Assembly: GCA_004295015.1 (NCBI GenBank)
Contig: SHNE01000010.1
Span: 62,001-126,000, forward strand
Direction: 5' to 3'
Length of the DNA stretch: 64,000 nt
DNA from: Bacteroidota bacterium
GTDB lineage: Bacteria; Bacteroidota; Bacteroidia; AKYH767-A; 2013-40CM-41-45
Position numbers and translations under genes: made by a program. The notes under the pieces are model-generated. The model saw nothing but the letters and a program-made list of their open reading frames with translations, had not been told where the DNA came from and searched no databases. Below, piece by piece: positions 47,485 to 61,888 of this stretch (within the stretch, counting starts at the first letter, position 1; the number at the start of each line of letters is the position of its first letter).

Positions 47485-48243
47485 TTACCTGAGGTAAATG
47501 TCTATTGCATCGCCTTGATTCATGTTTGAACTTACTCCGGATTCAGGATCTTGTTTATAAATGAGAGCTTCTTCCTCATCCTTTGTGTTGGGATCAAAAA
47601 AGACTTCCCCAAGTATGAGGCCGGAGCCTTTCAGTACAAACATTGCTTCGCTTTTAGTCAAACCTATAAGCATTGGAACAGAAACTTCCGTCGTACCAAG
47701 TCCGTCACCCAGTACCAAATCTATTTTAGAACCTTTAAATATTTCCACTCCGGGTTTTATCGTGGAGCCTTTATAATGTTGCTCGAGTACAGCATTTTTT
47801 GCCAGATCAGGTTCATAGCTAAGTTGTCCGACCTTTAAGCCAAATGTCTGCAGAATTGCTTCAGCCTGTCTGTAAGAAACGTCAATTAGATTAGGCATTT
47901 TTACTTTAGGAGGAGAGGCGGAGTTAACGGTAAGGTAAATCGTACGTCCTTCCTTAACATTAGACTCCGGGGCGGGATCCTGTTCCAGAATAGTCCCACC
48001 TGGTTTAGAGCCATCGAAAAGCGAATCAACGACTTGAAACTTCAAACTTTTTTCAGCTAAAAAAGTATCAAGTTCGGCTAAATCCATTCCACGCAAATTT
48101 GGCACGGCTATACTTTCTCCATGATGTGTGATTTTTCCCATCCATGCATACACGAGATAAATCGATAGTATACAAAGCAGGAATGCGATAAGCACATTGA
48201 TGAAGAAAACTTTACTCTTTAAAAACTTAACTAAATTTGACAT
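47485..48243 (-). CDS. membrane-anchored PASTA-domain protein
   Basis: 252 residues. One membrane helix at about 12-32 (VFFINVLIAFLLCILSIYLVY), then three PASTA domains at about 38-105 (VPNLRGMDLAELDTFLAEKSL), 112-178 (MPNLIDVSYRQAEAILQTFGL) and 188-252 (VPMLIGLTKSEAMFVLKGSGL). In Gram-positives PASTA domains bind peptidoglycan stems on Ser/Thr kinases; here there is no kinase domain. The gene starts eight bases after the D-Ala-D-Ala ligase stop, so it is co-transcribed with a peptidoglycan precursor enzyme. Confidence 0.93.
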   Translation of the reverse strand: MSNLVKFLKSKVFFINVLIAFLLCILSIYLVYAWMGKITHHGESIAVPNLRGMDLAELDTFLAEKSLKFQVVDSLFDGSKPGGTILEQDPAPESNVKEGRTIYLTVNSASPPKVKMPNLIDVSYRQAEAILQTFGLKVGQLSYEPDLAKNAVLEQHYKGSTIKPGVEIFKGSKIDLVLGDGLGTTEVSVPMLIGLTKSEAMFVLKGSGLILGEVFFDPNTKDEEEALIYKQDPESGVSSNMNQGDAIDIYLR

Positions 48244-48251
48244 AGATACAA

Positions 48252-50960
48252 TTAGAGAGTGCCTGCAGGTTGTTTTTTCTTTTTAATCCCGTATTCCAGA
48301 ATTTTATCAATAAATTCATATGGTTTGTAACCTGCAATCGCACTTTGGTGAAAGATACATGTCGCAGGAGTCATTCCCGGAAGTGAATTTACTTCAATAA
48401 AAATCACTTCTACTTTTCCATTATTGAAGATGCGTACAAAGGCATCTATTCTGGCATAGCCTTCTATATTCAGGACTTCTGCAGCTTTTTTGAATTCAGC
48501 TTTGACAATGTCTGATATTCTCTGTCTTTCTTTGTCATCACTTGCGTAACGAGCCGGAGTGATATTTTGACCTTCTCCTGCAAGAAATTTTTCTTCTAAT
48601 GAAAGCACATCACCTTCAGACAAAGCTTCTGATGCTTCAAAGATTTCATAAACACGATGTCCTTCCTCATTCACTCGGGTTAATAGTCCTCCTGTTATTT
48701 CCAGAAAATGTGAGGCATCCTTTCTTTCAATCAATTCTTCAATAAGGAACTGCTGCTTTCGTGGAAATTCTTCTTTGATTTTGAGCTGCAGAAGGCTTGC
48801 TTCTGCTTCGCTCAAATCTTCCTGGTTACGAAAAATTAGTTCAGCAAATGCACAAAGTTCTTTCTCGTTTTTGATTTTTTTAACAGCACTGCTGCATCCG
48901 TCATCAACCGGCTTGGCAATAAGCGGGAAGGAAAAGTTTTTCAGAATCGATTTGACAAATGAATCTTTGTCAGAACTCCAATCTGTACTGTTGACCAATG
49001 CATGTCTTGCAATATGAAAACCATGTTGGAAGAGCTTTTCATTAGTCTCAAATTTATTGATCGTCATCCGTGACGATTCAATACCTGAACCATTATAAGG
49101 CAGGCCAACTGATTCGAGATTTAATTGTAGAGCACCGTCTTCTCCCGGACGACCATGTAATGCAATAAAGACAACATCAGAAATTTCTGCCAAATCATGA
49201 AAGCTCAGTTCGCGGGGTTCAAGTACATTATCAGCAGCCGTATATTTTTGTGTAATGCTTTCACATTCCTGCATGATGCTACTCACTATATTATGGACTG
49301 AGTAATTAAACACTTTTTCTTTTATGTCGTCCGCATTGTCTTTCAACATCAGATTCACCGGAATCTGAAAGAGTTTGAAATGATTAGCATCGCCTGTGAG
49401 AAATACAGGAATTGGTTCGTATTTGACCGAGGAAGAAAGTTTTTCATAGACATTTCTGCCACTTTCTACAGAGATGTGTCTTTCGGAAGAGTAGCCTCCC
49501 ATGATCACAGCTACACGGATACGACGGCTTGATTCTTTCCTTAGTGATATTAATCCTTTGTCCACTGTTTTAAGAAGAGATGGGAGTGAGAGCACATTTC
49601 CCATGTCGTTCATTCGTTCTGCCAATGAAGTCCGGAGAATAAAGGAAAGGAACTGCGATGGATTCAACCCGATCTCAGCAGCCTGATGAAAGAAAAAGGA
49701 TGAAGGCATCATGCCGGAAGTCGTATTCGGATCATTTAAAAATACCTTTCCTTCCGGGCTGATAAATCCGTCTATTCTTGCGTAAACATTGAATTGCAAA
49801 GAAAGAAACAGGCGTTCACATTCTTTTCTGATTTTCTGAATTTGCTCATCAGGTAAATGTATCGGTGTAATTTTTCTTGATAAACCGGGCAGGTACTTCG
49901 AGCGATAATCAAATAACTCTTTTCCTTTTCTTATTTCGGTAGGAGGCAAGGCCACAGGCGTTCCATCTTCCCTTCGAATGACAATGCAGGAAAATTCCTT
50001 TCCTTCAATAAATCCTTCTATAACAACTTCGGTCTCGGCATCGCATGCTTCCAATACCAGGTAACTTGTGTCATTGCTGAGAAAATGGTTTGCTTGTTTT
50101 AAAATTTGTTCCGGATGATAAAGCAATTCAGCTTTACCTTCATGGTGCAGAAGTAAGGGACAACCAATGCCATCGCGGATGTCGGTGATCTTTCTTATTT
50201 TTTCTACCTTTTCATCTTCATTCAACTTGCTCCAATCTGACGAAGAAAGCTTGTGAATAAAGAAAGCTTTATTCATTGCATCTTCAAACCGGGCCGGATT
50301 ACTCTCATGTAAAATTGTTATTCCTATGGAAGAACCCTGATGTGCGGATTTTACCACACATGGGAATCCAATTTCATTTTTTACCGTATTGTAAATTGTT
50401 GTTTGGTGGTTTTGGTTCAGCCATTCTGTTCTGTGAACAGATAAAAAGGAAGGAGTGGCGAAAGAATATTCCTTCATCAACTTTTTCTGTATGGCTTTAT
50501 TAATTCCTACGGAAGAAGAATAGATACCGGATCCTGAGTAAGGAATTCCAAGGAATTCCAGCATTCCCTGAACTCTGCCATCCTCACCGAATGGACCATG
50601 TAAACAAAGAAATGCGAAATCTATATGATCTCTTAATTTCTCAAGCGGAATTCTTTTTCCGGAATGTTCGAATAAACTTTCCTGTTCCTTGATGCTTAGC
50701 TTGCCAAGACTTTCCGCATAGACCTGAAATTCATTAACGGATTCAGGGAGAGCGGAGGAAGGAGGGTAAAAATCCCTGATACTTCCTTTGTAGATGTACT
50801 CCCAGTTGAGGAGAATAAAATTTCCGAAGCTGTCGACAAAAAGTGGAACAGCCTCAAACAAGGATTTGTTGAGATTGTCATATACAGTTCGGCCTCCTGC
50901 GAAAGAGATCTCTCTCTCTCTGGAATTTCCACCAAAAACAATACCTACACGAATTTTCAT
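48252..50960 (-). CDS. ddl: tandem D-alanine-D-alanine ligase-like fusion
   Basis: 902 residues from ATG 50960; a TTG at 50993 adds 11 residues. Residue numbers here count from that TTG. Two ATP-grasp ligase copies lie head to tail. Copy 1 (about 12-455): VGIVFGGNSREREIS, LHGPFGEDGR, Lys215 with Gly-rich GSSIG (220-224), and NDPN (420-423) where the usual metal-binding Glu is Asp421. Copy 2 (about 491-905): VAVIMGGYSSERHIS, LHGRPGEDG, Lys694 with an altered loop GCSSA (699-703), and standard EVN (867-869) with LPGMTPAT. A normal Ddl is 300-370 residues. Product would be D-Ala-D-Ala for peptidoglycan. PASTA gene follows eight bases downstream. Confidence 0.9.
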   Translation of the reverse strand: MKIRVGIVFGGNSREREISFAGGRTVYDNLNKSLFEAVPLFVDSFGNFILLNWEYIYKGSIRDFYPPSSALPESVNEFQVYAESLGKLSIKEQESLFEHSGKRIPLEKLRDHIDFAFLCLHGPFGEDGRVQGMLEFLGIPYSGSGIYSSSVGINKAIQKKLMKEYSFATPSFLSVHRTEWLNQNHQTTIYNTVKNEIGFPCVVKSAHQGSSIGITILHESNPARFEDAMNKAFFIHKLSSSDWSKLNEDEKVEKIRKITDIRDGIGCPLLLHHEGKAELLYHPEQILKQANHFLSNDTSYLVLEACDAETEVVIEGFIEGKEFSCIVIRREDGTPVALPPTEIRKGKELFDYRSKYLPGLSRKITPIHLPDEQIQKIRKECERLFLSLQFNVYARIDGFISPEGKVFLNDPNTTSGMMPSSFFFHQAAEIGLNPSQFLSFILRTSLAERMNDMGNVLSLPSLLKTVDKGLISLRKESSRRIRVAVIMGGYSSERHISVESGRNVYEKLSSSVKYEPIPVFLTGDANHFKLFQIPVNLMLKDNADDIKEKVFNYSVHNIVSSIMQECESITQKYTAADNVLEPRELSFHDLAEISDVVFIALHGRPGEDGALQLNLESVGLPYNGSGIESSRMTINKFETNEKLFQHGFHIARHALVNSTDWSSDKDSFVKSILKNFSFPLIAKPVDDGCSSAVKKIKNEKELCAFAELIFRNQEDLSEAEASLLQLKIKEEFPRKQQFLIEELIERKDASHFLEITGGLLTRVNEEGHRVYEIFEASEALSEGDVLSLEEKFLAGEGQNITPARYASDDKERQRISDIVKAEFKKAAEVLNIEGYARIDAFVRIFNNGKVEVIFIEVNSLPGMTPATCIFHQSAIAGYKPYEFIDKILEYGIKKKKQPAGTL

Positions 50961-54154: not shown

Positions 54155-57100
54155 TTAATAGACAATACTTACGTGGCCTACCCACTCAGAGTACTTTCCA
54201 TCAATTCCAATACCTCTGATTTTGTAGACATAGGTATCTTGTTGACATTTTTCTCCATGGTAATATCCGTTCCAATTACCTTCCAGTCCTTCCCAATTAG
54301 TTAATAGTAATCCCCAACGGTCAAATATCCATACCTGAATGTTCGTCATATTTGTAAAATATGGTCTGAACAAATCATTATGACCATCACCATTCGGTGT
54401 AAAACAGTTTGGTGCAAAAAGAGTAGAGCGTGGTCTGATTTCTATGCGTCTCATGATTGTATCTCTGCAACCATAAGAGTTAACTGTGATCAGCTGTGCA
54501 GTATAGACACCTGTATCAGCAAATGTATGGACAGGATTCAAATCGGTGTATGTTGAAGTTCCATCACCAAAATTCCATACATAGGATGAATAATTTTGTG
54601 ATAAGTTGGTGAAATGAACAGTTGGATTTACGTCATCACCAATCAATGGATCAGCTGTAAAGTCGGCTACAGGTTGTGAGTAAACACGAACTGCAGCATT
54701 TTGAGTGTAACTTGCCTGGCATCCCATGTCAGTTACAACACTAAGACTGATATTGTAAATTCCTCCCTGTGTAAATGTATGCTGAGCATTTTCGTCTGTC
54801 GAAACTGCTCCATCACCAAAATTCCATAACCATCCGCTGATGGTTCCGCTGCTCACGACAGAATTACTCTGGAAACCGGCACTGATCGGTGCACATCCTT
54901 GAGCTCCTGCACTAAAACTTACGCTTGGGTTAGGATGTACGATGATATCAGCTGTGCTGCTATTCACACAACCCTGATCGGAAACCGCATTTAAACTAAC
55001 CGTATAGTTTCCGGGTGACGAATACAGGTGACTTGGATGTATTTGTGAGGCGGTAGCACCATCACCGAAATCCCAGGAATACGATTGAATGGCTCCGCTC
55101 AGGATAGAAGACTGGTTTGTAAATGTTGTATTTGAATTAAGGCAAACATTGTTTCCGGCAAATGTTACAGCAGGATTTGGATACACAATTAATCTTTTCA
55201 ATTGTGTATCAGAACATCCGAAACCGGAAGTGGCTGTGAGAGTTACATCATAAGTTCCGGGCTGACTAAAGTTAAAGGTGAGTGCGGAGTCTGTCGAAGT
55301 GAAGCCATTTCCCAGATCCCACAAATAGCTCACAGTGGTTCCTGTATTGTTTATGGTTGAATTGATAAACTGCACAGGGTTTCCTTCACAAACATTCGCA
55401 CTTTGAATTCTGGAAACAGGACGGTCGTAGATGGATACTGAGTCCTGGTATGGGCTGCTACAACCAAATGAGCTTGTGGTTGTAAGTGAAACATTATACT
55501 GTCCGGTTTGAGAATATAAATGAGTCGGATTACCTTCTGTTGAAGTGGTATTGTCACCAAAATTCCACATCCACGAAGTGATATGACCATCCTGAGAATA
55601 AGAGTTATCATCAAAACGTGTTAAGGCTCCATAGCAAACATCCGGTGCAGCAAACATCGTTGTCGGTGGTGTGTAGACTCTTGACATTCTTGTTGATTGA
55701 CTCTCACATCCGTTGACTGATGTTATGGTAAGTACAGTAGTGAATATTCCTGAACTTGTAAATGTATGTGTTGGATTCGCTTGTGTTGATTGTGATCCAT
55801 CACTGAAAGACCATAGGCTGGAGTATGAAATTCCACCCGATACACTTGACTGGTTAATGAATGAACTTCCATTTCCCAAACAAACATTCGAAGAAATAAA
55901 TGCAGCTGCCGGATTGGGAAATATATTCACGTTTGCTACGAAGCCGGCTGTACAACCCTGTGCAGAAGTAACAGTCAGACGTACGGGGTAGGACCCTTCG
56001 GTATTGTAGATGTGAACAGGCTCGTCAGAAGATGAACTTGTACCATCCCCGAAATCCCACAGCCAATTATTAATTACTCCACTGCTTATGCTGCTGGTGC
56101 TTAAAAATTCAACAGGAGATCCTGCACAAACATCAACTGCTGTAAAATTGGCTGATGGTTCCGGATAAATGATCAAGTCATGTTGTGTAGTATCCTTACA
56201 CCCACGATCTGAAGTGGCAATCAGATTTATCTGATAAGTCCCGTCAGACACATAAGTATGTGAAGGATTGGTTGAATTTGAGCTTGAGTTGTCACCAAAG
56301 TTCCAGTAGTAATTTGTAATGGAACCTGACGAAACTGATGAAAGGTTGTTGAATGCAACAGATGTATTTACGCAAGCCGGTGATGTTGAGAAATCAGAAG
56401 CAGGAATTGGATGTACTATAGCTAATCCATTCTTCATGGAAGTACAACCAAGGCTTGAAGTGATATTCAAGCTTACGATGTATGATCCATCCGATGTATA
56501 GGAATGAGCAGGATTTGAAGCTGAAGAGGTGTTTCCATCACCAAAATTCCAGCTATAGAATAAGATAGATCCTGATCCCGCAACAGAAGTATTGGTAAAC
56601 TGAATTGGCGTATTGGCACATTCATTTCCGTTACTGAAATTAGCTGTCGGCAATTTATGGATTTGAATGCTGCGTTGCGTTGAATCCACACAACCGCGAT
56701 CAGAAATTACAATCAGGCTTGTTTGATAGGTTCCATCGCCGGCATAAAGATGACTGGTTGAATTCCCTGTGCCTGAAGTAGCATCACCGAAATTCCAGTT
56801 CCATGTAGTAATGGTTCCGCTGCTTACCGTGGAAGCATCAGTAAATACAGAATTTATTCCGGCACAAACAGCCGGGCTGCTAAACGATGCAGTAGGGCGT
56901 GGATAAATGTCAATATTTCTTGATGCAGTTGTACTACATCCGCTTGCACTTGTAACGCTTAGTGTTACTGTGTATGTTCCGGATGCACTGTATGCATGAC
57001 TTGGCTGCTCCACATTGGAGAATGAGGTGTCACCAAAATCCCAGTTATAGCTTTGAATTGTGCCGGATGAAATTGACGAAAGATTGTTGAAGCTTATAGC

Positions 57101-60100
57101 GGTTCCTTCACATGCTGAAGAAGCTGTGAAATCTGTTACCGGATTTGGGTTGACATTAAGAATGTGCATCAAGGTTCCTGTGCAACCGTTCGCGTCAGTA
57201 ATTGTTACAGAATAATTTCCGGCTGTCGAAACAGAAATTGAGGAGGCTGTTGATCCGTTCGACCAACTATACGTACTTCCGGGATTTCCTGCCAGAAGTG
57301 TAGCACTTCCACCATCACAAATTGAACTCGTCACCGGAGTGGAATTGAGTGAGTTTCCTAATGTCACTGTGGAAGTTCCCATGGCAGGACAACCATTAGG
57401 GCTTGTAACAACAACAGTATAGATTCCTGAATCGCTAACATTTATTGATTGAGAGGTTTCACCTGTTGACCATGCAAAGGTTGACCCCGGATTTCCTGCA
57501 TCCAAAGTTGTACTAAAGCCGGGACAAATAAAAGTAGGCGACAAATTCACAACAGGGACAGGATTTACAGTTACAATCACTGTATCTCTTCTTACACAAC
57601 CACTTGCACTTGTTCCCGTAACAATATATGTAGTGTTTACCGAAGGACTTACATAAATAGTCGAAGTGGTAGCCGCACCCGGATTCCAGGAATATGCATT
57701 CGCTCCTGATGCAACCAGATCGGTTGTTGATCCTACACAGATAGCTTTATCCGGTCCTGCACTAACATTCGGGAGAGGATTTACAGTAACATTTGCAGTA
57801 TCGGTAGCCACACAACCATTAGCATCTGTTCCGGTGACGAAGTATGTTGTGTTGGATATTGGGTTGACAGATATAGAAGAAGTTGTATAACCACCGGGAC
57901 TCCAAACGTAACTAAGTGCACCTGATGCCGTCAGGGAAGCGGAAGAGCCGGTGCATAAGATCCTATCCGGTCCGGCTGAAACTGCAGGAAGATTGTTCAC
58001 AATCACATTCACCATGTCATTTGCCGTACAAGAATTGGCATCTGTAACTCTAACAGTATAGGTAGTATTGGATGAAGGACTTACTGTAATGTTTGATGCA
58101 GTTGTTCCTCCCGGACTCCATAGATAGCTGATACCACCGCTTGCAGTTAGACCGGCTGAATTACCATTACAAATTGTTTGATCTGCACCTGCATTGGCAA
58201 CTGGATTTGTATTTACAACAACCGGCTTCACAACTGTATCAGTACATCCGAAACCGGAAGTAGCGATGAATCTTACCGTATAGGTTCCTGCTGCAGCATA
58301 ACTGTGACTCGGCGAACTTTGATTTGAAGTATACGTGTCTCCAAAATCCCATGAGTAAGTTGTGATTGAACCTGTAGGTATCGTTGAACTGTTACCGAAA
58401 ACTGTAGCGGAACCTGCACAAACAGGTGCTGCATTGAAATCGGCAGTTGGCAGAGGATTGATGGTAATGGTTCTTGAAACAGTATTGGAACATCCACCTG
58501 CAGTTGTGACCGTAAGACTTACATTAAAGTTTCCGGAAGTTGCATATAAATGAGATGGATTTTGTGAGGAGGAGCTGGCTCCATCTCCAAAGTTCCATGC
58601 ATAGGTTGTTATAATCCCACCGGAAATTGTCGATGTATTTGTAAAAGCCAATGCTGATCCCTGGCAAGCTGAACCATTGCTGAAGTTTGCAACAGGAAGT
58701 GGATTAACGGTAACCGGATTAGTAATGGTATGACTGCAACCATCAGCACTGATAACCGTTAGTGTCACGTTATATGTCCCCGGTGTTGTATATATATGGG
58801 TAGGATTTTGAAGCGATGATGTTGCGGTATCACCAAAATCCCATGACCAGTCGATGATAATTCCGGATGAAATACTTGAAAGATCTGTAAACGATGTAAC
58901 GTTTCCTGCGCAGGCAGAATTGGTTGTGAAGTTTGCCACAGGAATTGGATTCACCACCGCATTGACGGATATCGATCCGGTGCATCCGGAATTATCATCT
59001 ACTTGTACGCCGTAAGTTCCGGATGAATAAACAGTAATGCTCTGACTTGTTTGTCCTGTGCTCCATAAATAGCTCATCCCCGGATACCCTGCATCAAGAA
59101 TTGCACTGTCACCCTGACAAAATGCAACGTCATCAAGGCTGATGTTAATGGCAGTTCCCATAGTTACATTTGAAGATGCCGTAGCAACACAACCAAATGA
59201 ACTTGTTACTGTCACGGTATATGTCCCGCCGGTAGAAATACTGATGGTTCTTGTCGTATCCCCGTTAGGCGTCCAAACATAAGAACTTGCATTGACTCCT
59301 GCGTCAAGCGTTAAGGTAGAACCGTTACACAAGAACATGTTCTGCAAGGTGAGTACCGGAGGATTGTGAACAATAACACGTACCGTATCTCTTCCGGAGC
59401 AACCGCTTCCGTTAGTAACAGTAACAATATAGGAAGTAGTACTTCCCGGGTTTACGGTAATGGATGAATTTGTACTTCCTCCGGGAGACCAACTATAAGT
59501 TCCGCCACCGCTTGCGGTCAGTGTTGCACCGGATCCTGCGCAAATATTCTGATCAGCACCTGCGACTGCAGTAGGAAGAGAATTTACGTTCACACGAACA
59601 ATGTCACTTGCTGTACAACCATTTGCATCGGTACCTACGACTGTATAATTTGTTGATGAAGTTGGATTGACTGTTATAGTACTGTTGGTTGAACCACCCG
59701 GGGTCCATGTGTATGAGTTTGCTCCACCGGCAGTAAGTGTAACTGCTGATCCGGAACAACTCGCCACATCAGGTCCGGCATTTACCGTAGGAAGAGGGAG
59801 TACCGCGACCCAGACCGTATCCCGGTTAATACAACCGTTTGCATTTCCAACGGTCACTACATAGGACGTAGAACTTCCGGGATTAACTGTTATAGAAGCA
59901 TTCGTTGATCCTCCCGGTATCCAGGTGTAATTTGTTCCGCCACTTGCTGTCAGCGTTACACTTGATCCGGAACAAATTGTTCTGTCCGCACCCGCATTTG
60001 CTACAGGAAGTGGATTGACAGTGACAAGCTGAACGACAGTATCCAGGCATCCATTAGCATTTCCTGCAATGAGTGTAACTGTATAGGACCCAACTGTACC

Positions 60101-61888
60101 ATAAGTATGAGTTGGGTTTTGGAGAGTAGATGTAGAACCATCACCAAAATTCCAATTCCATGAAGTAATGGTACCCGGAGGTGTGCTCTGATCTGTAAAG
60201 CTTACGGCTGATCCTACACATGTATTTCCATAGCTAAATGCAGCCACAGGAGGATTAGCAATAACTATTTGATGCACAACTGTGTCAAAACAACCCAGCG
60301 TATTCTCAATAATCAGGCTCACATTATATGTTCCTGCACCGGGAAAAAGATGACTTGGATTTTGTAGTGTTGACGAAGTTCCATCTCCAAAATTCCAGTT
60401 CCAGCTCCAGATAATTCCACCTGGTGTGGTAGACTGATCCGTAAAATTTACAGGAATATTAATACATGTAGTAGGAGAGTTAGTGAATTGAGCAACCGGA
60501 ATAAAGGGCATAGTTACAACAACAGTATCTGTCGCACTGCAAACACCATCATTTGCAGTAACCCAATAGGTGCCGGCACCAACAGTAATCCATTGTGAAG
60601 TGGAGCCATTGCTCCATAAATAAGTATAGCTGCCACTTCCGCCACTGGCATTTGCACTGAGTGTAGCAAAGTCACTGCATGCAATCTGTTCATCGGGACC
60701 GGCATTTACAGTTATTCCAATAACATTTACGGTGTAGGAGTAAATCTGACTTCCATAGTATGGACATGCATCATCTCTGACACGCACAGTAAAAATATTT
60801 GAACTACCGATATCGCTATTGCCTGGCGTCCAGCAAAAAGTTCCGGTAGGGCGCGGGTCAACATTGCTATTAAATGATGCCCCGGAAATTCCTCCATCCC
60901 AATTTACCTGAAGATTTTGACCTCCGTCAGGATCTAAAGAAAAGATGTCGAAGCAAGTTTCTTCATTGGCACAAACAGTTATCGAGAAGTCGTTTGTCCC
61001 ATTTATACCTGTCAAAGAAGGAAGATTGTTTGCGCAATTCATTACCGTCAGTTGCAAGTCACGTTCAACACTGCCAATTAACACACCGTTCCTGTATTCT
61101 TTAACGAGTACAGCCATTACGGTAACCTCAAGATTTTGCGGATTTAAACAGATATCTCCTGTTGCTGAATTAAAAGACGTAGCTGGAAGTGAGTTTAAGG
61201 GATTCGCTGCATTATAAGGAGCCATGTAACTTACATTGGCTACCGCTGTTTGCTTCGGCGTAATTAATTCATAAACCAATGAGTCTCCATCGGGATCATA
61301 AGCACCGTGATTAAAACAGTATTGTTGTCCTACACATAAAAATGGTACCGGCTTATTTGCAAATACAGGTGAACTGTTACACGGAGTAATAACATTGTTT
61401 AAAGTTGAATAGATATAGAATGTACTTGTTCCTGGATTATTAATAGTGGTAATGGCTGCATTTCTGCAACATAATGAATAACTAAAAACCCAGTCGGTAC
61501 ATTGTGCAGGCAAGGTGATGATCCCATCATAAACCCATTCCTGAATACCTGTGAATGATCCTCCATTACATGTAGTTACCGAACTTGAGCAGGCCGGAGT
61601 AACCTCCTGACCGGTTCCCGGACGCGGGTAGGTTGTAACACCAAGACTTTGTCCGCAACTTGCCGAGCTGATAGTTACGTAAGGACTTGCCGGGGCGGCG
61701 ATACCGATACAATCTCTGTAAAACGAAACAGTAATTTTGTAGGTATTTCCCCCAAGACATTCGTAGGTGAGGTCGGCTCCCATAGTATGACTGGCAGATG
61801 CCGGGCTTGTGAACAGCGCCGTCATAAAAAGGGCAAGAATAACCGTACACCTCAGTTGTAGTTTTTGTGTCATGTTAATTTGTTTCAA
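54155..61888 (-). CDS. giant PKD/Ig-repeat adhesin-like protein, gliding-motility-type T9SS domain
   Basis: 2577 residues. Signal peptide (about 1-32), an N-terminal domain found in Bacteroidota giant proteins (SHTMGADLTYECLGGNTYKI, about 33-390), then 27 beta-sandwich repeats. By my count 11 are Ig-like (C-x..AGPD..WSPGG.. type) and 16 are PKD (WNFGDG type). Order: 1 Ig, 2 PKD, 5 Ig, 3 PKD, 5 Ig, 11 PKD. The end (FAPNCFTPNGDGHNDLFRPY to GHVSIVY, about 2489-2577) is a gliding-motility-associated (CHU_C, T9SS type B) domain. 26 of 27 repeats have one Cys pair. Likely surface adhesin or matrix protein; a role in gliding is only inferred from the domain name. Confidence 0.95.
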   Translation of the reverse strand: MKQINMTQKLQLRCTVILALFMTALFTSPASASHTMGADLTYECLGGNTYKITVSFYRDCIGIAAPASPYVTISSASCGQSLGVTTYPRPGTGQEVTPACSSSVTTCNGGSFTGIQEWVYDGIITLPAQCTDWVFSYSLCCRNAAITTINNPGTSTFYIYSTLNNVITPCNSSPVFANKPVPFLCVGQQYCFNHGAYDPDGDSLVYELITPKQTAVANVSYMAPYNAANPLNSLPATSFNSATGDICLNPQNLEVTVMAVLVKEYRNGVLIGSVERDLQLTVMNCANNLPSLTGINGTNDFSITVCANEETCFDIFSLDPDGGQNLQVNWDGGISGASFNSNVDPRPTGTFCWTPGNSDIGSSNIFTVRVRDDACPYYGSQIYSYTVNVIGITVNAGPDEQIACSDFATLSANASGGSGSYTYLWSNGSTSQWITVGAGTYWVTANDGVCSATDTVVVTMPFIPVAQFTNSPTTCINIPVNFTDQSTTPGGIIWSWNWNFGDGTSSTLQNPSHLFPGAGTYNVSLIIENTLGCFDTVVHQIVIANPPVAAFSYGNTCVGSAVSFTDQSTPPGTITSWNWNFGDGSTSTLQNPTHTYGTVGSYTVTLIAGNANGCLDTVVQLVTVNPLPVANAGADRTICSGSSVTLTASGGTNYTWIPGGSTNASITVNPGSSTSYVVTVGNANGCINRDTVWVAVLPLPTVNAGPDVASCSGSAVTLTAGGANSYTWTPGGSTNSTITVNPTSSTNYTVVGTDANGCTASDIVRVNVNSLPTAVAGADQNICAGSGATLTASGGGTYSWSPGGSTNSSITVNPGSTTSYIVTVTNGSGCSGRDTVRVIVHNPPVLTLQNMFLCNGSTLTLDAGVNASSYVWTPNGDTTRTISISTGGTYTVTVTSSFGCVATASSNVTMGTAINISLDDVAFCQGDSAILDAGYPGMSYLWSTGQTSQSITVYSSGTYGVQVDDNSGCTGSISVNAVVNPIPVANFTTNSACAGNVTSFTDLSSISSGIIIDWSWDFGDTATSSLQNPTHIYTTPGTYNVTLTVISADGCSHTITNPVTVNPLPVANFSNGSACQGSALAFTNTSTISGGIITTYAWNFGDGASSSSQNPSHLYATSGNFNVSLTVTTAGGCSNTVSRTITINPLPTADFNAAPVCAGSATVFGNSSTIPTGSITTYSWDFGDTYTSNQSSPSHSYAAAGTYTVRFIATSGFGCTDTVVKPVVVNTNPVANAGADQTICNGNSAGLTASGGISYLWSPGGTTASNITVSPSSNTTYTVRVTDANSCTANDMVNVIVNNLPAVSAGPDRILCTGSSASLTASGALSYVWSPGGYTTSSISVNPISNTTYFVTGTDANGCVATDTANVTVNPLPNVSAGPDKAICVGSTTDLVASGANAYSWNPGAATTSTIYVSPSVNTTYIVTGTSASGCVRRDTVIVTVNPVPVVNLSPTFICPGFSTTLDAGNPGSTFAWSTGETSQSINVSDSGIYTVVVTSPNGCPAMGTSTVTLGNSLNSTPVTSSICDGGSATLLAGNPGSTYSWSNGSTASSISVSTAGNYSVTITDANGCTGTLMHILNVNPNPVTDFTASSACEGTAISFNNLSSISSGTIQSYNWDFGDTSFSNVEQPSHAYSASGTYTVTLSVTSASGCSTTASRNIDIYPRPTASFSSPAVCAGINSVFTDASTVSSGTITTWNWNFGDATSGTGNSTSHLYAGDGTYQTSLIVISDRGCVDSTQRSIQIHKLPTANFSNGNECANTPIQFTNTSVAGSGSILFYSWNFGDGNTSSASNPAHSYTSDGSYIVSLNITSSLGCTSMKNGLAIVHPIPASDFSTSPACVNTSVAFNNLSSVSSGSITNYYWNFGDNSSSNSTNPSHTYVSDGTYQINLIATSDRGCKDTTQHDLIIYPEPSANFTAVDVCAGSPVEFLSTSSISSGVINNWLWDFGDGTSSSSDEPVHIYNTEGSYPVRLTVTSAQGCTAGFVANVNIFPNPAAAFISSNVCLGNGSSFINQSSVSGGISYSSLWSFSDGSQSTQANPTHTFTSSGIFTTVLTITSVNGCESQSTRMSRVYTPPTTMFAAPDVCYGALTRFDDNSYSQDGHITSWMWNFGDNTTSTEGNPTHLYSQTGQYNVSLTTTSSFGCSSPYQDSVSIYDRPVSRIQSANVCEGNPVQFINSTINNTGTTVSYLWDLGNGFTSTDSALTFNFSQPGTYDVTLTATSGFGCSDTQLKRLIVYPNPAVTFAGNNVCLNSNTTFTNQSSILSGAIQSYSWDFGDGATASQIHPSHLYSSPGNYTVSLNAVSDQGCVNSSTADIIVHPNPSVSFSAGAQGCAPISAGFQSNSVVSSGTISGWLWNFGDGAVSTDENAQHTFTQGGIYNISLSVVTDMGCQASYTQNAAVRVYSQPVADFTADPLIGDDVNPTVHFTNLSQNYSSYVWNFGDGTSTYTDLNPVHTFADTGVYTAQLITVNSYGCRDTIMRRIEIRPRSTLFAPNCFTPNGDGHNDLFRPYFTNMTNIQVWIFDRWGLLLTNWEGLEGNWNGYYHGEKCQQDTYVYKIRGIGIDGKYSEWVGHVSIVY
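56402..58201 (-). repeat. super-repeat copy 2 in the giant gene
   Basis: Codes for residues 1230-1829: five Ig-like domains then three PKD domains, in the same order as copy 1. Register with copy 1 is 600-601 residues at eight checked landmark positions. Confidence 0.8.
58202..60007 (-). repeat. super-repeat copy 1 in the giant gene
   Basis: Codes for residues 628-1229: three AGAD/AGPD-type Ig domains, two LDAG-type Ig domains, three PKD domains. The two PKD domains before it (Trp498, Trp579) are also 600-601 residues ahead of their counterparts, suggesting a third, truncated unit. Confidence 0.8.

Follow-up and report, generated by a model that had tools for sequence, protein, structure and literature searches.

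D-Ala-D-Ala ligase (Ddl), which is essential and is targeted by a drug (D-cycloserine), is usually regarded as a symmetric homodimer formed by the product of a single gene. What, then, do two diverged Ddl copies do when they are joined in one chain, and does either of them serve as a ligase by itself? We addressed this question for a gene in the window, i.e., the whole stretch of 64,000 nucleotides from a Bacteroidota genome that we analysed, and for its relatives in the Bacteroidota, the phylum that our genome survey of doubles covered.

Architecture, occurrence and neighbourhood of the double ligase gene

The gene, its two copies and the gene downstream of it are located as follows, with residues in all signatures numbered as in E. 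coli DdlB.

48252..50960, minus strand: double D-Ala-D-Ala ligase gene, 902 aa, ATG at 50960, stop at 48252.
49545..50960, minus strand: copy 1, residues 1-472, a Tyr-type Ddl with the canonical D-Ala pocket, Asp at Glu270 and Ser at Pro275.
48255..49544, minus strand: copy 2, residues 473-902, with the ATP/Mg residues kept and the D-Ala pocket altered (Cys150, Ala153, Phe216, Thr281, Cys282).
47485..48243, minus strand: membrane-anchored PASTA protein, 252 aa, three PASTA domains.

A preliminary description of the locus had recognised two ATP-grasp ligase copies in one ORF, and its ORF, strand and coordinates are right. The Ddl domains are doubled, as the 902-aa protein contains Dala_Dala_lig_N and Dala_Dala_lig_C twice each (Pfam; whole-protein E-values 5e-50 and 1e-55), and either half by itself passes the Pfam cut-offs for both Ddl domains. 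The whole protein scores 376.5 bits against TIGR01205, and copy 1 and copy 2 alone score 226.3 and 156.1 bits, respectively, both under the cut-off of 245.65 bits. The two copies are 26% identical to each other. An artefactual fusion can be ruled out since most relatives are also about 900 aa long. AlphaFold2 modelled the whole protein with a pLDDT of 85.3 and a pTM of 0.85, both omega loops being of low confidence, and each half is predicted to fold as a Ddl: the copy 1 model matches the Thermus thermophilus Ddl with a Z of 35.8 (rmsd 2.0 over 319 residues), and copy 2 modelled alone (pLDDT 84.1) matches LmDdl2, DdlA and VanA with Z values of 37.0, 36.9 and 36.0, respectively. As these three values are nearly tied, the specificity of copy 2 is not told by its structural neighbours.

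A search of the genome for a second, single-copy ddl had been proposed as a check, and by profile search the 902-aa ORF is the only Ddl: we found no other PF01820 (Ddl N-domain) ORF in the 99.98%-complete source genome, and a separate ddl among its other PF07478 matches is ruled out, as their ORFs do not have a Ddl N-domain. The source genome also harbors murF and alr; its two murF-like genes are located at G000:C1:65484-67859 and C18:63106-64347, one of them within an 834-aa MurF-Alr frame. Likewise, a second PF01820 ORF is absent from every double-carrying genome tested. Most of the 40 genomes nearest to the source encode full-length relatives with 57-71% identity, as do named members of Pontibacter, Hymenobacter, Rufibacter, Adhaeribacter and Rhodocytophaga. 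When 198 genomes were drawn from the whole phylum, most of the Ddls among the matches listed were single; besides the source genome, the double was found in three genomes (G111, G205 and G217) and a shortened form in another (G229), from an order in which most families typically carry the double. Two further sequences are worth recording. A contig titled Candidatus Saccharibacteria (L097) carries a Bacteroidota-type double Ddl with 59% identity and is probably mis-binned, and in the family of the source genome itself, one contig (G007:C236:1-2500, L208) carries a single DdlA-like ligase (373-aa frame) in place of the double; this ligase is placed close to E. coli DdlA in our tree and reflects either a replacement or a stray contig.

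The ligase gene was also described as tightly coupled to the PASTA gene, and the latter indeed starts 8 bases past the stop codon of the former. A PASTA gene lies downstream of the double in 51 of the 79 loci tested, and at one locus (L122:1462-5055) the double Ddl is in-frame with a transmembrane PASTA protein in a single ORF of 1197 aa; both observations support a functional link to the envelope. Elsewhere in the window, an ORF of 2577 aa on the minus strand (54155-61888) has a high content of PKD-like repeats and likely encodes a secreted giant protein.

Substitutions fixed in the two copies

We constructed a signature alignment of 98 double proteins spanning several families. The sites at issue are located as follows in the source protein.

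50322..50336, minus strand: copy 1 ATP loop GSSIG, residues 209-213.
49860..49928, minus strand: copy 1 omega loop with FDYRSKYLPG, residues 345-367; Tyr356 corresponds to DdlB Tyr216.
49725..49736, minus strand: copy 1 NDPN, residues 409-412; Asp410 corresponds to DdlB Glu270 and is invariant in the family.
48885..48899, minus strand: copy 2 ATP loop GCSSA, residues 688-692; Cys689 corresponds to DdlB Ser150 and is invariant.
48699..48740, minus strand: copy 2 lengthened loop from Glu741 (Glu180) to Glu754 (probable equivalent of Glu187).
48546..48614, minus strand: copy 2 omega loop, residues 783-805, LSLEEKFLAGxGQNITPARY, almost wholly invariant; Phe792 corresponds to DdlB Tyr216.
48357..48395, minus strand: copy 2 EVNSLPGMTPATC, residues 856-868; Glu270 and Asn272 kept, Ser281 replaced by Thr and Leu282 by Cys.

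The motifs listed in the preliminary description are all present (GSSIG, EGFIEGKEFS and NDPN in copy 1; GCSSA, EELIERKDASHF, EVN and LPGMT in copy 2), and its Asp421 is the Asp of NDPN, though this is residue 410 from the ATG, the number 421 being obtained by counting from an upstream TTG. In copy 1, Glu15, His63, Lys97, Ser150, Gly153, Glu180, Glu187, Lys215, Tyr216, Arg255, Asp257, Asn272 and Ser281 are invariant in 98/98 doubles, and Lys144 is found in 97/98. All 98 also have Asp in place of Glu270, Pro as residue 271 and Ser in place of Pro275, the last of which the earlier list for this copy overlooked, while it had the change of Glu270 right. In one protein (L123, from G205), a low-complexity insertion of about 25-30 residues lies in copy 1 just ahead of FLNDPNTTSGM, the double Ddl being otherwise intact.

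The invariant residues of copy 2 (98/98) are Glu15, His63, Lys97, Lys144, Glu180, Lys215, Arg255, Asp257, Glu270 and Asn272. Six replacements are equally constant, namely, Ser150 by Cys, Val152 by Ser, Gly153 by Ala, Tyr212 by Leu, Tyr216 by Phe and Ser281 by Thr, and Leu282 is replaced by Cys in 95/98 doubles. The changes of Gly153, Tyr216, Ser281 and Leu282 had gone unmentioned in the earlier list. As for the loss of the EKFIEGxEF segment from copy 2 that it contained, the segment is replaced as claimed; however, the equivalent of Glu187 is probably kept, as a loop longer by six residues is followed by the invariant Glu754, an assignment made less sure by this very insertion.

When tested for the canonical catalytic residues, copy 1 lacks only Glu270, having Asp instead, and copy 2 lacks Ser150, Tyr216 and Ser281. 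Since neither half is fully canonical, we class the double protein as a Ddl variant rather than a standard member. The earlier observation that the halves diverge at different catalytic elements extends beyond a single protein, as the divergence is conserved in 98/98 doubles. As a control, single Ddls of the Bacteroidota are canonical at Glu270, Ser150, Tyr216, Pro275 and Ser281 in 41/41 cases. Being invariant in 98 doubles and absent from all 41 singles, these substitutions are not due to chance, and at the sequence level the asymmetry between the copies is a fixed signature of the family.

Neither copy appears to be decaying. In Pontibacter pairs the dN/dS values are 0.051 for copy 1 and 0.050 for copy 2, both approximate as the synonymous divergence is near 1; the mean pairwise identity is 63% for copy 2 versus 60% for copy 1, and 121 of 428 columns are invariant in copy 2 versus 116 of 474 in copy 1. 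Judged by these values, purifying selection is equal on both halves, and a dN/dS of about 0.05 in both, with the higher identity in copy 2, rules out a decaying copy. Furthermore, copy 2 does not resemble a dead pseudoenzyme, since its catalytic, ATP and Mg residues are kept in 98/98 and the changes are concentrated at Ser150, Tyr216 and Ser281. The first two are conserved in Ddls that make D-Ala-D-Ala only, and replacing them gives DdlB a weak D-Ala-D-Lac activity (PMC7691350). In lactic acid bacteria, Phe versus Tyr at the Tyr216 site predicts depsipeptide versus dipeptide activity (PMC5996685), and by this rule copy 2 only is of the Phe type, with Phe in 98/98; the best Van models (NCBIfam) score far under their cut-offs. 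The preliminary suggestion that one half might use another substrate is thus partly favoured, to the extent that copy 2 alters both Ser150 and Tyr216.

The same changes could be read in another way, namely, that copy 2 is regulatory, binding ATP and D-Ala or D-Ala-D-Ala and tuning copy 1 while making no product. A changed Glu15-Ser150-Tyr216 pocket next to kept ATP residues, and a near-invariant omega loop, would be in agreement with such a role. However, Arg255, Lys215 and the two metal ligands are invariant as well, although a protein acting purely as a sensor could do without them, and we consider a regulatory copy 2 unlikely.

Origin, fission and loss of the halves

Our careful tree has three sides, each of them supported: the singles (99/86), copy 1 (100/97) and copy 2 (100/100). 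E. coli DdlA is grouped with the singles, and a wider quick tree including DdlB agrees. If the root is placed within the singles, this topology corresponds to a single duplication, after which truncation, fission and loss took place, with the caveats that the tree is unrooted and its branches are long. Separate ancestors for copy 1 and copy 2 are not favoured given the three-sided tree, and the long branches leave some doubt on this point.

Truncation is seen in three families (f15, f45 and f47), in 25 genomes of which copy 1 with a copy 2 remnant is the sole PF01820 ORF, about 560-660 aa long. The remnant fits the copy 2 N-domain model in 20 of the 22 proteins tested (E 2e-28 to 2e-5), the catalytic part being gone; a repeat of copy 1 is ruled out by these 20 matches, one remnant matching copy 1, more weakly. 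A copy 2 relocated elsewhere was not found in the copy-1-only genomes. Asp270 is present in 22/22 sequenced copy-1-only proteins, indicating that Asp at this site does not by itself abolish function. Residue 275 is Pro in all 22 (L150-L166, L187-L191), versus Ser in 98/98 doubles.

Fission is seen in family f62, with genome sizes of 0.7-2.7 Mb: 12 of 21 genomes carry two separate PF01820 genes, six carry the fused gene, one (G333) carries a single gene and two carry none. The 12 split-gene genomes are 0.7-1.9 Mb in size, mostly 0.7-1.2 Mb, and their halves are unlinked. In the eight f62 genomes for which both gene sequences were in hand (G267, G281, G308, G357, G362, G363, G365 and G366), one gene is of the copy 1 type and the other of the copy 2 type, the copy 2 frame of G365 being shortened. 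His63 is lost, to Tyr or Asn, in the split copy 1 of G281 (L182) and G267 (L184/L223), as if copy 1 were eroding in these two genomes while copy 2 stays intact. In G333 (L186), a 0.7-Mb draft that is 96% complete, the only Ddl is a copy 2, beside murF and alr; GSSYG replaces GCSSA there, so that Ser150 and Gly153 are present, and Phe216 and Thr281 are kept. No homologue of the D-2-hydroxyacid dehydrogenases (PF02826) was detected in G333 by profile, and therefore its copy 2 is more likely a maker of D-Ala-D-Ala than of D-Ala-D-Lac. PF02826, which is not specific to D-lactate, has matches in the source genome and in other free-living genomes. Partly from its placement, f62 is probably the family of Cardinium and Amoebophilus, both reported to be able to make peptidoglycan (PMC3486910).

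As far as gene content tells, the halves can hence be separated, either by fission into two genes or because one of them, be it copy 1 or copy 2, is lost. Such reciprocal loss might suggest simple redundancy, in which both halves make D-Ala-D-Ala, the active sites are merely doubled and the substitutions are near-neutral. However, invariance of Cys150, Ala153, Phe216, Thr281, Asp270 and Ser275 in 98/98 doubles over several families is not expected of neutral changes, and redundancy appears very improbable to us. The gene losses also bear in opposite directions on a regulatory copy 2: three families tolerate its loss, retaining only an N-domain remnant, but copy 2 is the sole Ddl of G333.

The obligate intramolecular dimer of impaired halves put forward in the preliminary description does not hold as written, given that copy 1 is the sole Ddl in 25 genomes, the halves are split in 12, and copy 2 stands alone in G333. 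In a modified form, each half would be too weak alone, and in double-carrying species the halves would have to associate, fused or not. The signatures fixed family-wide in both halves, the joint retention of the two genes in the 12 split-gene genomes and the relative placement of the halves, predicted with a pTM of 0.85, are consistent with such an obligate complementary pair. So is the more canonical state of the lone halves (Pro275 in 22/22 copy-1-only proteins; Ser150 and Gly153 in G333), which is the strongest point still in favour of coupling. Nevertheless, the halves need not be covalently joined, and there are genomes in which one or the other is the only Ddl. Moreover, when the dimer-interface residues listed for BpDdl (PMC6899670) are mapped by an offset of 7 to DdlB G74, V88 and A92, these sites are kept in copy 1 and are variable, often charged or polar, in copy 2, which makes a copy 1-copy 2 version of the standard dimer unlikely. 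We therefore regard the obligate pair as improbable, while a weaker mutual dependence is plausible from the more canonical residues of the lone halves. These residues were either restored or are simply ancestral, two possibilities that the tree does not separate.

Roles of the two halves and relation to known systems

Our preferred reading, which we hold to be about as probable as all others together, is that this sole Ddl arose by tandem duplication and fusion, copy 1 being a D-Ala-D-Ala ligase and copy 2 a ligase that is competent for ATP but whose D-alanine pocket is altered. A DdlA-like ligase would have been duplicated in tandem and fused within the Bacteroidota. Copy 1, with its full D-alanine pocket, would tolerate Asp as a metal ligand and most likely makes D-Ala-D-Ala for MurF. 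Copy 2 would have kept its ATP/Mg and catalytic residues, its acceptor pocket and omega loop being rebuilt; as the partner of copy 1, it would probably have a different or broader second substrate, or a lower rate. Catalytic activity of each half and a changed specificity of copy 2 are what the residues suggest, and the halves presumably associate when split. From the sole-Ddl status next to murF and alr, we infer the D-Ala-D-Ala role and the handing of the dipeptide to MurF. However, the catalytic part of copy 2 is lost in three families, so any special activity is dispensable there; the lone halves (Pro275; Ser150/Gly153) are not exact stand-ins for the halves of the source protein; and the evidence from G333 comes from one draft genome.

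We also put forward, more tentatively, that the chain contains two coupled ligases, with copy 1 making D-Ala-D-Ala, copy 2 making another D-Ala-D-X or controlling copy 1, and their residues co-adapting. Co-adaptation is suggested by the occurrence of a non-proline residue 275 in copy 1 and of Cys150 in copy 2 only where the partner is present.

The preliminary description knew of no account of the functional split, and in the open-access literature, which our search covered, we found no description of a bacterial double Ddl or of its asymmetry. A large part of the Bacteroidota relies on an asymmetric double Ddl, and the natural deletion series (fused, split, copy 1 only and one copy 2 only) makes the role of each half directly testable.

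Both halves share with single-chain Ddls (E. coli DdlA/DdlB; TIGR01205; PF01820 and PF07478) the two domains, the fold (Z 35-37) and nearly all catalytic residues; in contrast to these, the double has two diverged copies per chain with fixed Asp270/Ser275 and Cys150/Ala153/Phe216/Thr281. Copy 2 has the Phe at the Tyr216 site in common with the Phe-type D-Ala-D-Lac ligases (LmDdl2) and VanA, which are among its best structural matches, but it has Cys rather than Ala at Ser150 and another omega loop. Throughout plants, DDL reportedly consists of two putative DDL enzymes fused together (PMC9954125), and the moss Ddl has been reported as closest to homologues from the Fibrobacteres-Chlorobi-Bacteroidetes (PMC9434261). 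The bacterial double, compared here by architecture only, shares with the plant DDL (Arabidopsis, Physcomitrella) the fusion of two enzymes in one chain, and it may be informative about how the fused DDL of plant chloroplasts arose and what it does. CarB likewise consists of two ATP-grasp halves that arose by internal duplication and have different jobs, although its reaction and arrangement are unrelated (Foldseek match over both halves, rmsd 15.8). If the reading as two coupled ligases were true, the double Ddl would represent a CarB-like division of labour within an essential step of cell-wall synthesis, possibly passed on to plants.
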